A stretch of DNA of 34,059 nt. Origin: a virus. Each line of letters starts with the position of its first letter. Positions within the stretch are counted from its first letter, which is position 1. The translations under genes and the position numbers were made by a program. Under the pieces are notes generated by a model that saw only the letters and a program-made list of their open reading frames with translations, made no database searches and was not told the DNA's origin. The stretch lies in the IMG/VR virus record IMGVR_UViG_3300042294_001354, positions 1-34,059 of that record; one strand, 5' to 3'. Below, one piece after another: positions 15,623 through 27,446 of the stretch.

Positions 15623-15649
15623 TTGACAATATAAGGGAAATGTAATAAC
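15623..15649 (+). promoter_or_regulatory. Strong promoter candidate for the major capsid gene
   Basis: A consensus TTGACA (15623-15628), a 15-base spacer, then AATAAC (15644-15649) followed by G. The pair is nearly the same as TTGACA-N15-TATAACG at 25509. Here the capsid ATG is about 170 bases downstream, leaving a long leader, unlike the other sites. Confidence 0.55.
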
Positions 15650-15655
15650 GTCCCG

Positions 15656-15821
15656 CCAAGACTTAGATCCGAGTTGGTCGCGGATACCTCGCTGGCTGGT
15701 TAGCCTTCAAAATTTGTAGCCGTAAATCTCTGGTCGCGGCCCAGAAACTTAACCGATAGACGGGCATTCTGTGCCTTGATATCAAACCTAACCCTTAAAC
15801 TAAATAGAAAGAAATAATATT
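15656..15821 (+). promoter_or_regulatory. Structured 5' leader of the capsid mRNA
   Basis: A gene-free stretch of about 165 bases between the promoter and the capsid ATG. Four short hairpins follow one another: ATCCG/CGGAT (15667-15685, 9-base loop), GGCT/AGCC with a GGTT loop (15694-15705), TCTGG/CCAGA (15729-15745) and GGGCA/TGCCT (15762-15776). TGGTCGCGG occurs twice (about 15675 and 15731). GGTTA (15698-15702) could also pair with TAACC (15750-15754), a possible pseudoknot or switch. A 10-base palindrome TTGATATCAA lies at 15776-15785. The last 40 bases are AT-rich and unpaired with only a weak GAAAG before the ATG. Likely role: mRNA stability or translation control of the most abundant protein. 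Structure is by eye only. Confidence 0.45.
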
Positions 15822-17057
15822 ATGTCAGCACCTGTTGCTACTTCGTGCGAAAGCATTTCTGATCAGTTTCAACGCGAGACTGGACGTATTGCTCTTGGCA
15901 CTCATCGCTTGGGTCTTTATAAAGATCCCTACCTCCGTTTCGTGACCCAGTCGGCTTTCCCCGACAATATGGGCGCGATTGTCAAAAACACCATCGCCCA
16001 GCGCACTGTTGCCGTTGGCAGCGGATGGGAAGATATCGGCGTCACTGGCGTCTCTGGCGAGCTTAACTCCTGCTTGGCTCCCGTCAAGACCGTCAGCTAT
16101 GCCTTCGACCAGAAGGAATTCAAACTCCGCCATCAGGCCATCGAATCCGATTGGATCTGCTTGGAAGACGTTCGTACTTCGGCTTTCCCGATTGATGATG
16201 TCAACAACTACATCAAGATCCTTGCCGATAACGTCAACAAAGAGTGGATCGAGCGTTATGACAATGACTACCTCGCCTTCTCGACGAAAGTCTCTGTGGA
16301 ACCTGGCCTCTCTGAGTCCACTTCGACCAGCGGCTTCACCAGCGCACTGCCCGCTCCCACCTCCGTTATGACGTTGGGCGTTCTGCGTGAAATCTATGAT
16401 CGTCTCTATCAGGACAACGCTGGTGATGACGGTGATGCGGTGACCGATGACGGCTCGCCTGTTTTCAACGTGTTCGCTGAACGCGCCACGATTGAGAACT
16501 TGATCAAGCTCAACAACGAAGTCCGTGAGGACATCCGTTGGAGTGATCGTGTCAACGATCTGCTTGGTGCCAACGGCTCCTCGCTCCTGCCCCGTAAGTC
16601 CTATGGTGGATTCGTGTTCCATAGCCGTCCGTTCCCGAAGCGTTTCAACGACAACGGTTCTGGTGGTTTCACCGAAGTTCCTCCGTATGTTTCGGGCGGT
16701 GCGTCCGTCAACGGAAAGAGCAAGTACATCATCAACCCCGCCTACAAGGCTGCGAAGTACACCACCACGGTTGTGTTCCACCCGAAGGCGATGGAGTGGC
16801 TTGTTCCGAACCCGAACCTCAAAGTCGGCAAACTGGTCTATGATGCTCAGAACTATCGCGGAGACTTCCGCTGGATCAACGAGTACGATAAGAACTGTAA
16901 CCCCGACAAAAATAGCGGTTACTGGCGCGCCAAGATGGCTTGCGCGGTGAAGCAGATCTTCCCTCAGTGGGGATACTACATCTTGCATCTCCGTTGCAAC
17001 CTCGCCAGCGATCTGGTTACTTGCCCCACGGGCAGTGGCTACGGTTACCTCGCGTAA
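15822..17057 (+). CDS. Major capsid protein
   Basis: 411 residues, no signal peptide or membrane segment, mixed alpha/beta. It has the length of an unprocessed HK97-fold capsid protein. It follows the scaffold gene, has its own promoter candidate with a long leader, and uses a codon set strongly biased to C-ending codons, as expected for the most abundant virion protein. Recognisable local features are an N-terminal helix (SISDQFQRETGRIALGTHRL), an extended-loop region around residues 40-100, and a C-terminal segment ending TCPTGSGYGYLA. Assignment rests on position, size, expression signals and general look; I cannot show the fold from sequence alone. Confidence 0.85.
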   Translation: MSAPVATSCESISDQFQRETGRIALGTHRLGLYKDPYLRFVTQSAFPDNMGAIVKNTIAQRTVAVGSGWEDIGVTGVSGELNSCLAPVKTVSYAFDQKEFKLRHQAIESDWICLEDVRTSAFPIDDVNNYIKILADNVNKEWIERYDNDYLAFSTKVSVEPGLSESTSTSGFTSALPAPTSVMTLGVLREIYDRLYQDNAGDDGDAVTDDGSPVFNVFAERATIENLIKLNNEVREDIRWSDRVNDLLGANGSSLLPRKSYGGFVFHSRPFPKRFNDNGSGGFTEVPPYVSGGASVNGKSKYIINPAYKAAKYTTTVVFHPKAMEWLVPNPNLKVGKLVYDAQNYRGDFRWINEYDKNCNPDKNSGYWRAKMACAVKQIFPQWGYYILHLRCNLASDLVTCPTGSGYGYLA

Positions 17058-17080
17058 TTAGTTAGTCTCTATTCATCAAG

Positions 17081-17110
17081 GCTTGCCTTGGAGTAAAATC
17101 TAAGGCAAGC
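17081..17110 (+). promoter_or_regulatory. Perfect 9-bp hairpin after the capsid gene
   Basis: GCTTGCCTT (17081-17089) and AAGGCAAGC (17102-17110) are exact reverse complements around a 12-base loop. No T-run follows, so this is not a standard intrinsic terminator. It more likely protects the 3' end of the capsid mRNA, acts as a processing site, or causes partial attenuation before the downstream genes. Confidence 0.6.
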
Positions 17111-17115
17111 TCTAT

Positions 17116-17123
17116 GAGGAGAG
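17116..17123 (+). promoter_or_regulatory. Strong Shine-Dalgarno for the acidic head gene
   Basis: GAGGAGAG lies 10-18 bases before the ATG at 17134. It is one of very few good Shine-Dalgarno sequences in the window, so this gene is initiated differently from its neighbours. Confidence 0.55.
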
Positions 17124-17133
17124 AATAACAATT

Positions 17134-17379
17134 ATGAAACTAACTATACCGACTGATTATACCCTGCCTGAAGATGTTGCTGATGGCGACACCTTTGAAG
17201 AGCTTGTGACCTTCCGTGTTGACGGAGATTCGCTGGTTCCCACCATGTTGGCTGGCGTCGAGATTGCGGCTGAAGAGGCCGAAGACGAAGACGAGATGGA
17301 GGACGAGGCCGCTGACGAAATGGAAGCGGGCGTGTCCCCTATGGCTGGCATGGGCGAGCGTATCATGGGCATGGCTTAA
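17134..17379 (+). CDS. Small acidic head-region protein
   Basis: 81 residues. Residues 1-45 look like a compact beta domain (MKLTIPTDYTLPEDVADGD, then FRVDGDSLVPTM). Residues 46-65 are almost all Glu, Asp, Met and Ala (AEEAEDEDEMEDEAADEMEA). The tail is Gly/Met-rich. It sits directly after the capsid gene behind a hairpin and a strong Shine-Dalgarno, where phages often keep a head decoration or assembly factor. That role is inferred from position only; no family is recognised. Confidence 0.6.
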   Translation: MKLTIPTDYTLPEDVADGDTFEELVTFRVDGDSLVPTMLAGVEIAAEEAEDEDEMEDEAADEMEAGVSPMAGMGERIMGMA

Positions 17380-18112: not shown

Positions 18113-18397
18113 ATGAAACAACTATTCGCAAAAATCTGGGGAATCACATCCTCCGTCTTTAACTTCTTCCTTCCCATTCTTAAGGAAGTTGCATCCTCTT
18201 CGGTTGCCGCGCTTCTTCCGATTGCCTTGGAGATTGTCGAGTCTCTGGCCTATACCGATAAAACTGGGTCTCAAAAGCGAGAAGCCGCAGTCAAAAAGCT
18301 TACCCTTACAGCCAAAAAACAGGGCATCAGCGCCTCTGAATCTTTGATTCGTTTTGCTGTTGAATCTGCCGTGCAACGCTATAAACTGGATCTATGA
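18113..18397 (+). CDS. LLH-family-like holin
   Basis: 94 residues with a hydrophobic N-terminal half (about residues 8-48, including VFNFFLPILKEVASSSVAALL) and a basic, amphipathic C-terminal half with QKREAAVKKL and ESLIRFAVESAVQRYK. The K-R-E-A-A-V and I-x-x-x-x-E-x-A-V patterns are those of LLH-type phage holins. It is followed with a 4-base overlap (ATGA) by another holin-like gene. Holins form the inner-membrane holes that release endolysin and time lysis. Confidence 0.65.
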   Translation: MKQLFAKIWGITSSVFNFFLPILKEVASSSVAALLPIALEIVESLAYTDKTGSQKREAAVKKLTLTAKKQGISASESLIRFAVESAVQRYKLDL

Positions 18398-21497: not shown

Positions 21498-21730
21498 TCC
21501 CGTCTTGGGATAGCATGTGGGAGTCGTTTGACACCCACAATCAAAAGACTACCATTGAGGCCATGAACGCCGAAGGATGGAGGACAATTGATCAGGTCAC
21601 ACAAAAGACAGGTTTATCAAGTCCGCGAATCTATAATATGGTTCGTGAGGGAAAATTTGAGTCTATCAAAAAGAAAGTGTTTTACGCTGGAAAAACCAGA
21701 GATATTAAGTTTGTTAGACCAAAGCGTTAA
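21440..21730 (+). CDS. Helix-turn-helix DNA-binding protein
   Basis: 96 residues from ATG 21440. WRTIDQVTQKTGLSSPRIYN then MVREGKFESIKKK is a winged-HTH/MerR-excisionase-like pattern: helix, turn, recognition helix, then a basic wing. It overlaps the phosphoesterase gene by 58 bases in another frame; starting at the ATG at 21515 would remove the overlap and still keep the HTH. Its TAA shares 4 bases with the stop of the convergent minus-strand gene, so no terminator lies between them. It may regulate the neighbouring cassettes. Confidence 0.6.
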   Translation: MATHYSKTRGAKSSNDKIVVPSWDSMWESFDTHNQKTTIEAMNAEGWRTIDQVTQKTGLSSPRIYNMVREGKFESIKKKVFYAGKTRDIKFVRPKR

Positions 21731-25379: not shown

Positions 25380-25465
25380 GATGATTTTCCGCTTGCAATG
25401 GTTAATGATCATGCTAGATTCCAGATTGGAAGGCATTCGTCTTCCTGTTTTCATGTGTGTGTGGG

Positions 25466-25502
25466 GCGGGGTCGGGCCAAAAACTCGGCCCCGCTTTTTT
25501 TT
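25466..25502 (+). terminator. Strong intrinsic terminator, plus strand
   Basis: GCGGGG plus TCGGG (25466-25476) pairs with CTCGG plus CCCCGC (25484-25494), an 11-bp stem with two G-T wobbles and a 7-base loop, followed by 8 T (25495-25502). It is oriented for plus-strand transcripts although no plus-strand gene lies within 3.7 kb upstream. It would stop read-through that crosses the inverted cassette and insulate the promoter 6 bases downstream. The rest of the 210-base gap holds the two promoter candidates and a small GGAAG/CTTCC hairpin (25428-25445). Confidence 0.85.
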
Positions 25503-26424: not shown

Positions 26425-26577
26425 ATGAAAGGCAAAAAGAAAGTAGCAAAAGTCATGGGAGAATACGGCAAGGGCAAACTTAAAAGTAGCTCTGGCAAGA
26501 AAGTCACAAGCCAGAAACAGGCCGTGGCCATCGCACTCAGCGAGGCTGGCATGAGCAAGAAGAAAAAGAAACGCTAG
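26425..26577 (+). CDS. DUF6496-like small basic protein
   Basis: 50 residues with Lys-rich ends. KVMGEYGKGKLKSSSGKKV then SQKQAVAIALSEAG matches a small phage and bacterial family I know as DUF6496 (K-V-M-x-E-x-x-x-G-x-L-x-S-S-S-G-K-K-V, then K-Q-A-x-A-I-A-L-S-E-A). It is probably nucleic-acid binding given its charge. TAG overlaps the GTG start of the nuclease gene by one base. Confidence 0.75.
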   Translation: MKGKKKVAKVMGEYGKGKLKSSSGKKVTSQKQAVAIALSEAGMSKKKKKR

Positions 26578-27446
26578 TGACTGTCACTAATACATTCAAT
26601 CTCCCCCAGCCGTTCGTTGATCTCGTTAGCGAGTCTTCGTATTCGGCGGGGGAGGCTGATATTACTACCACCAGCCTATTCCAACCCCCGAAAATTCGGG
26701 AGTTGATGCGGCGTCATGCTGACAAAGTTACCGAAGACGCTTCGGATCGGGTATGGACAATGTTGGGGACAGCTAACCACTACGTTCTGGAACAAATCGC
26801 CAAGCGCAATCCCGAACGCTACGTCTGCGAGGAAAGGTTCTATATGGATGTTGACGGGGTGAAACTTGGTGGGCAAATCGACCTCTATGACAAGCAGGAG
26901 AAAGTCCTTTATGACTATAAGGTAAGTAGCGTCTACAAGGCTATGAGCGATGATCGCTTTGAGTGGACAGCACAGGCGGCGGTCAACCGACTTCTACTGG
27001 AACACAATGGCTATCCAGTGAAACGCGCAGCCATCATCTTAGTAATGAAGGATTGGAGGATGCGGGATTCTAAAATCAAGGCCGACTATCCAAAGTGTGC
27101 GATTGTGGAAATCAAACTGGATGCATGGAAGCCCGAAGAAACGTTTGCATATATCAAAAGCCGCATTACACTCCACCAACAAGCAAAAGAACTTTCCGAT
27201 GACCAGATCCCGATCTGCACACCAGAAGAGCGGTGGGAAAAACCCACCATCTATGCCGTCCTCCCGAAAGAAGGAGCGAAACGTGCCGTTAATGGAGGGT
27301 TGTACGAATCTGAATCTGAGGCTAAAGAACACGCAAAAAGAATTTCTGGTGCCGTCGAGAGACGGGACGGGAGTTGTGCGCGGTGTATGGACTACTGTCG
27401 AGTGCGCCAGTTCTGCCAATTCGGAAGAAACCTAAAAACCAACTAA
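26577..27446 (+). CDS. PD-(D/E)XK nuclease with a C-terminal Cys cluster
   Basis: 289 residues from a GTG start that overlaps the previous TAG. The RecB/Cas4-type nuclease motifs are seen in order: GTANHYVLE (His68), GGQIDLYD (Asp102), LYDYKVSS (Asp113, Lys115) and WTAQAAVNRL (Gln133). The C-terminus has C267-x2-C270-x3-C274-x5-C280, and Cys84 lies near motif I, a set that in AddB and Cas4 relatives holds an iron-sulfur cluster. The enzyme is therefore likely a 5'-3' exonuclease used in phage recombination or end processing. Neighbours (SSB-like candidate, SWIM) fit. Cas4 itself is unlikely because there is no CRISPR context. Confidence 0.8.
   Translation: MTVTNTFNLPQPFVDLVSESSYSAGEADITTTSLFQPPKIRELMRRHADKVTEDASDRVWTMLGTANHYVLEQIAKRNPERYVCEERFYMDVDGVKLGGQIDLYDKQEKVLYDYKVSSVYKAMSDDRFEWTAQAAVNRLLLEHNGYPVKRAAIILVMKDWRMRDSKIKADYPKCAIVEIKLDAWKPEETFAYIKSRITLHQQAKELSDDQIPICTPEERWEKPTIYAVLPKEGAKRAVNGGLYESESEAKEHAKRISGAVERRDGSCARCMDYCRVRQFCQFGRNLKTN

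Follow-up and report, generated by a model that had tools for sequence, protein, structure and literature searches.

The virus record analysed here, a 34,059-base stretch referred to as the window, carries an untranslated leader ahead of a putative major capsid gene which, judged by comparison of sequences, is a real structured RNA and new to Rfam. Its predicted fold consists of three pseudoknots in a row, then a hairpin and last an AU-rich, unpaired stretch that runs to the ATG, and five of its helices vary in concert among relatives. The leader probably serves in protecting or controlling the mRNA of a very abundant viral protein. A first-pass annotation had already proposed a structured leader RNA element at this place, and rightly so; its version of the fold was only half right and partly wrong in detail, and it overlooked three co-varying pseudoknots, the promoter and a second conserved structure 3' of the gene. 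The features are as follows.

15623-15651, + strand: promoter, with the -35 box TTGACA at 15623-15628, a 17-nt spacer and the -10 box TAACGT at 15646-15651
15658-15821, + strand: structured 5' leader, beginning at the predicted transcription start
15660-15685, + strand: pseudoknot 1, GACU 15660-15663 with GGUC 15676-15679 and AUCCG 15667-15671 with CGGAU 15681-15685
15686-15705, + strand: pseudoknot 2, ACC 15686-15688 with GGU 15698-15700 and GGC 15694-15696 with GCC 15703-15705
15719-15745, + strand: pseudoknot 3, GCCG 15719-15722 with CGGC 15737-15740 and UCUGG 15729-15733 with CCAGA 15741-15745
15755-15783, + strand: hairpin 4, GAUA...GGCAU-UCU-GUGCC...UAUC
15784-15821, + strand: AU-rich unpaired segment CUUAAACUAAAUAGAAAGAAAUAAUAUU, reaching the start codon, without a Shine-Dalgarno sequence
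15822-17057, + strand: open reading frame of 411 aa, putative major capsid gene, conserved in relatives
17060-17131, + strand: long hairpin after the putative capsid gene, about -35 kcal/mol, almost fully paired

Fold of the leader

The proposed untranslated leader of about 165 bases was borne out: it lies between the TTGACA-N17-TAACGT promoter at 15623-15651 and the ATG at 15822, with transcription predicted from the promoter position to start at about 15658. The pattern TTGACW-N16-18-TAnnnT fits the promoters of 36 of the 42 distinct relatives (one of the 36 has AAnnnT), and the distance from the -10 box to the GACU of pseudoknot 1 is 8 nt in 27 promoters and 6-10 nt in all fitting ones. Column identity among relatives is at its minimum in the promoter spacer (0.52), reaches 0.73-0.90 from the predicted start onward and goes down again over hairpin 4 (0.57-0.70). 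The leaders of relatives differ by insertions of 1-2 nt, so the leader is non-coding and a leader peptide was rejected.

The four short hairpins of the first-pass annotation (15667-15685, 15694-15705, 15729-15745 and 15755-15783) are all conserved. In pseudoknot 1, the loop UUGGUC at 15674-15679 is invariant, while the second stem (H1) occurs in 10 arm combinations, among them AUCCG/CGGAU, GUCUG/CAGAC, GCUUG/CAAGC and GUUCG/CGAAC, with about 35 inferred double changes. The arms of the first stem of pseudoknot 2 are ACC/GGU, GCC/GGU, ACU/AGU, GCC/GGC, GCU/AGC or GUU/AGC, and those of its second stem GGC/GCC, AGC/GCU or GGU/GCC. The two 3' strands of pseudoknot 3 adjoin with zero nucleotides between them; its first stem is formed by GCCG/CGGC, GCUG/CAGC, UCCG/CGGA or UCCG/CGGG, and its second stem by eight arm combinations, all paired, which include UCUGG/CCAGA, UCUGC/GCAGA, UCUAG/CUAGA, UCCAU/GUGGA, CCUCAU/GUGAGG and CCCAU/GUGGG. 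Hairpin 4 can be drawn at the same place in the relatives read, its sequence being swapped wholesale (e.g., GAUCUAGGGGUCAAAAUCCCGAAAUC). The linker UUC is conserved, as are the words UUAA and UAGAAA in the AU-rich segment. Neither a U-tract terminator inside the leader nor a conserved helix reaching the start codon was found in the leaders.

Other details of the earlier fold did not hold. The suggested pseudoknot between GGTTA and TAACC has no covariation, because GGT changes to AGT or GGC without a matching change in the 3' TAACC; the partner of the GGU in GGUUA is the upstream ACC, as seen in the combinations ACC/GGU, ACU/AGU, GCC/GGC and GCU/AGC. The repeat TGGTCGCGG does exist in two copies, at 15675-15683 and 15731-15739, but is not conserved as such. 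It was rejected as a functional repeat, its copies lying in different helices and structural contexts and the second varying among relatives, and the nine-base match looks coincidental. The 10-base palindrome TTGATATCAA (about 15776-15785) is likewise present and lacks conservation.

Comparative support for the fold

Folded alone, the leader reaches -31.2 kcal/mol against a mean of -33.7 for dinucleotide shuffles (z +0.65), and 144 of 200 shuffles fold as well as the leader, so that the structure is evident from comparison only. Conservation and covariation among relatives, which the first-pass annotation had named as the check on its proposal, were both found. In alignment A3, where the count covers H1, the second stem of pseudoknot 2 and both stems of pseudoknot 3, 94.7% of the cells are paired, 12 of the 17 pairs have double changes, and the covariation score is 0.343 compared with 0.167 for shuffles and at most 0.157 after sliding. 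Two of the stems, H1 and the first of pseudoknot 3, also come out of RNAalifold independently, the latter with compensatory changes. On the tree of the downstream gene, about 95 inferred double changes preserve pairing versus 8 changes to a broken pair; since leaders recombine between phages, these double changes are not all independent events. Complementarity served in part to locate the arms of pseudoknots 2 and 3, though the spacing of pseudoknot 2 is fixed in 63 of the 65 leaders. G-U cells exceed A-C cells in the helices by 16:1, which indicates that it is the mRNA that pairs.

On the automatic model alignment, covariation was also tested over all pairs against a substitution-preserving null, and a single pair reached E<0.05. 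Such a test has little power when relatives are close, and this alignment mis-registers pseudoknots 2 and 3; we therefore relied on the arm tables, later-found sequences and tree counts. The later-found sequences bear on the GACU/GGUC stem, which is invariant in 65 leaders and whose pairing was initially recorded as untestable. The leader of L393 (the same contig as L413), found later via the downstream hairpin, was matched at E 9e-11 by a model built without it, and has GAUC/GAUC at this stem, which keeps all four pairs, with C-G replaced by U-A, U.G by C-G and the other two the same. L414 likewise has GAUC/GAUC, with CCUAC/GUAGG in pseudoknot 3 where L393 has CCUAC/GUGGG. The predicted first stem of pseudoknot 1 is thus confirmed by a compensatory swap in leaders found afterwards, a swap that is one evolutionary event and was unused in deriving the pairing. 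Pseudoknot 2 is weak in the L393 clade, with one mismatch in each stem.

Distribution of the leader

Relatives of the downstream protein, 71-100% identical, were found in about 120 IMG/VR contigs; there were none among 50,697 phage records, and the peptide patterns used found none in 84,980 prokaryote genomes. The leader is present between promoter and start codon in each of the 65 distinct relatives whose upstream sequence is long enough. A covariance model of the leader, built from 36 representatives, gave one match in each of 98 sources, and each of the 26 whole contigs (23-73 kb) has exactly one strong copy, always ahead of the same gene. No strong second copy was found in these contigs; G017 and G025 have weak matches of 45 nt (E 0.02-0.36).

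The whole window had zero matches to Rfam 15 at the gathering threshold, the only match near the leader at a permissive threshold was at chance level (E 4.5), and no tRNA or tmRNA was found. No published description of such a leader was found in the part of the literature that was covered. The earlier suggestion of an undescribed phage RNA element has therefore stood up: the element is conserved, co-varying, mRNA-sense and without an Rfam match.

Downstream gene and transcription unit

The downstream gene was assigned as a probable major capsid gene from its place after a charged, coiled-coil-like (scaffold-like) open reading frame, its size and its conservation. Its protein had no match among Pfam, PHROG families and PDB sequences, and AlphaFold models from shallow alignments of 19 and 38 sequences had pLDDT of 30 and 32, unusable for capsid identity. 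Most of the window proteins tested, among them the ones encoded ahead of the putative capsid gene, had no PHROG or Pfam match; the matches comprise tail fibre pieces, a Mtd_N domain, a holin (18113-18397), a weak metallophosphatase and an exonuclease (26577-27446), and such a small number points to a little-known phage lineage.

The hairpin at 17060-17131 covers the Shine-Dalgarno sequence GAGGAG of the next gene, has a mean column identity of 90% among relatives and occurs once per contig, always immediately 3' of the putative capsid gene. Its place is taken by terminator-like hairpins in six relatives (L069, L080, L023, L061, L225 and L281) and by other strong hairpins in four (L010, L032, L058 and L067). 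Followed by either an intrinsic terminator or the conserved long hairpin, the gene looks like its own transcription unit. The hairpin is possibly a processing site, a 3' barrier or a control of the 81-aa gene at 17134. Elsewhere in the window, a strong intrinsic-terminator-like hairpin of 14 pairs followed by a T run is located at 25463-25497 on the + strand.

Function of the leader

Phages make hundreds of copies of capsid protein per virion, and promoters and ribosome sites are mostly given the credit for this excess over neighbouring genes. A multi-pseudoknot leader backed by covariation and serving a single gene throughout a group of uncultured phages (about 100 relatives) would be a concrete RNA device for capsid output, and a new RNA family for Rfam.

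The explanation that we tentatively favour, while rating it at somewhat under an even chance, is that burial of the 5' end, together with an insulated and open AU-rich start region, would yield a long-lived, well-translated mRNA. The leader would act in cis as the structured 5' untranslated region of the mRNA of one phage structural gene, its first ~130 nt forming the three tandem pseudoknots and the hairpin, and the unpaired AU-rich segment after them receiving the ribosome. Because the 5' strand of pseudoknot 1 lies 1-3 nt from the predicted start, the 5' end would be hidden and hard to reach for decay that depends on it (RppH/RNase E or RNase J). The compact domain and hairpin 4 may insulate the always-open start region from the remaining message, and the leader combined with the 3' hairpin or terminator could give a long-lived, essentially one-gene mRNA, which would suit a structural protein required in great quantity. 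Stability and insulation are more likely than timing, given the single copy, its place at the 5' end and the hairpin or terminator 3' of the gene.

Bacterial mRNAs are stabilised by 5' secondary structure, as both RppH and RNase E require a 5' end that is single-stranded (PMC3997798), and RNase J1 can be stopped by pseudoknotted viral RNA (PMC5760640). The leader shares with bacterial 5' stabilising leaders (5' hairpins, ermC-type) a 5'-terminal structure near the start and a likely effect on decay; those leaders, however, are simple hairpins or depend on stalled ribosomes and are not conserved multi-pseudoknot domains. With flaviviral xrRNAs it shares, in its predicted fold, the character of a compact pseudoknotted viral RNA that might stop a 5'-3' exonuclease. 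The xrRNAs form a ring around the 5' end from a three-way junction (PMC5760640) and are located in 3' UTRs, whereas the leader has three successive two-stem pseudoknots and no such ring is predicted in it. If 5'-end decay were blocked, exonuclease-resistant viral RNAs would extend to bacteriophages; that the tandem pseudoknots are a 5' "cap substitute" which, with the dedicated 3' hairpin, mechanically blocks host 5'-end decay as a phage counterpart of these RNAs strikes us as improbable. Two points speak against protection from decay in general: a plain hairpin would serve equally well to shield a 5' end, and the loop UUGGUC and the linker UUC are conserved beyond the needs of a roadblock, which suggests a recognised surface.

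The same invariant loop is the reason why a translational operator stays a strong rival, although we consider it rather unlikely. The pseudoknots would bind a phage protein, either the product of the gene itself or a different one, which would cover the AU-rich start and shut off translation. In the T4 gene 32 leader, likewise part of a phage mRNA, a 5'-terminal pseudoknot is followed by a less structured U/A-rich start-site segment with UUAAA/UAAA words (PMC535899), and the same layout is predicted here, with pseudoknot 1 near the predicted 5' terminus and CUUAAACUAAAUAGAAA in the start segment. The single copy per genome ahead of one gene fits an operator as well. The T4 element is a single pseudoknot of ~28 nt before the gene for a single-stranded DNA-binding protein (SSB), an autogenous operator bound by gp32, whereas the window has ~130 nt with three pseudoknots in tandem and a hairpin before a probable capsid gene. 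Nothing marks the downstream gene as coding for an SSB, feedback is less obviously needed for a capsid protein produced in bulk, and UUAAA-like words are expected in AU-rich sequence; CUUAAACUAAAUAGAAA is present and unpaired in the window, and words of the UUAAA/UAAA type vary among relatives. Compact pseudoknots with invariant loops also resemble aptamers, and the leader could bind a small molecule or ion to time synthesis. We give little credence to such a riboswitch-like sensor, as an expression platform was not found (there is no terminator and no alternative pairing with the start region), Rfam gave zero matches even permissively, and the leader occurs only ahead of one phage gene.

A single conserved copy per genome would also suit a packaging or replication signal in the DNA, or a leader fragment working in trans as a small RNA. 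Both are quite improbable given the large excess of G-U over A-C pairs, the beginning of conservation at the predicted transcription start and the lack of a terminator after the leader for release of a small RNA. The least credible reading, to which we assign only a slight chance, is an antitermination RNA that modifies RNA polymerase as it enters a late operon. Like putL of phage HK022, the leader is encoded directly behind a promoter, but put elements are ~70 nt long, consist of two stem-loops and occur in two copies per genome (PMC9378689), in early operons, whereas the leader has pseudoknots instead of two stem-loops and is present once, ahead of one gene with a 3' terminator or hairpin. 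A strong terminator stands immediately 3' of this gene in several relatives, and in the window no sense-strand terminator was found within the downstream gene cluster before its end near 21730; there would thus be little to read through.

Variation among promoters and leaders

About 15 of the 42 distinct promoters contain an inverted repeat centred near -13.5 and overlapping the -10 box. Its arms differ (GGGAAA/TTTCCC, CGCAAA/TTTGCG, GTGCAAA/TTTGCAC and ATAGGAA/TTCCTAT), and the equivalent in the window, at 15629-15655, is imperfect. The repeat looks like an operator whose specificity changes among relatives. In the clade of L058, L061 and L393, an AGGAG Shine-Dalgarno sequence stands ahead of the start codon, where most relatives have only UAGAAAGAAAUAA; this perhaps reflects a different host. 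L072 (4840-5000) and L074 (4836-5000) have clearly different leaders, while their proteins are seemingly identical in alignment A2, which indicates that recombination swaps the leader separately from the gene.
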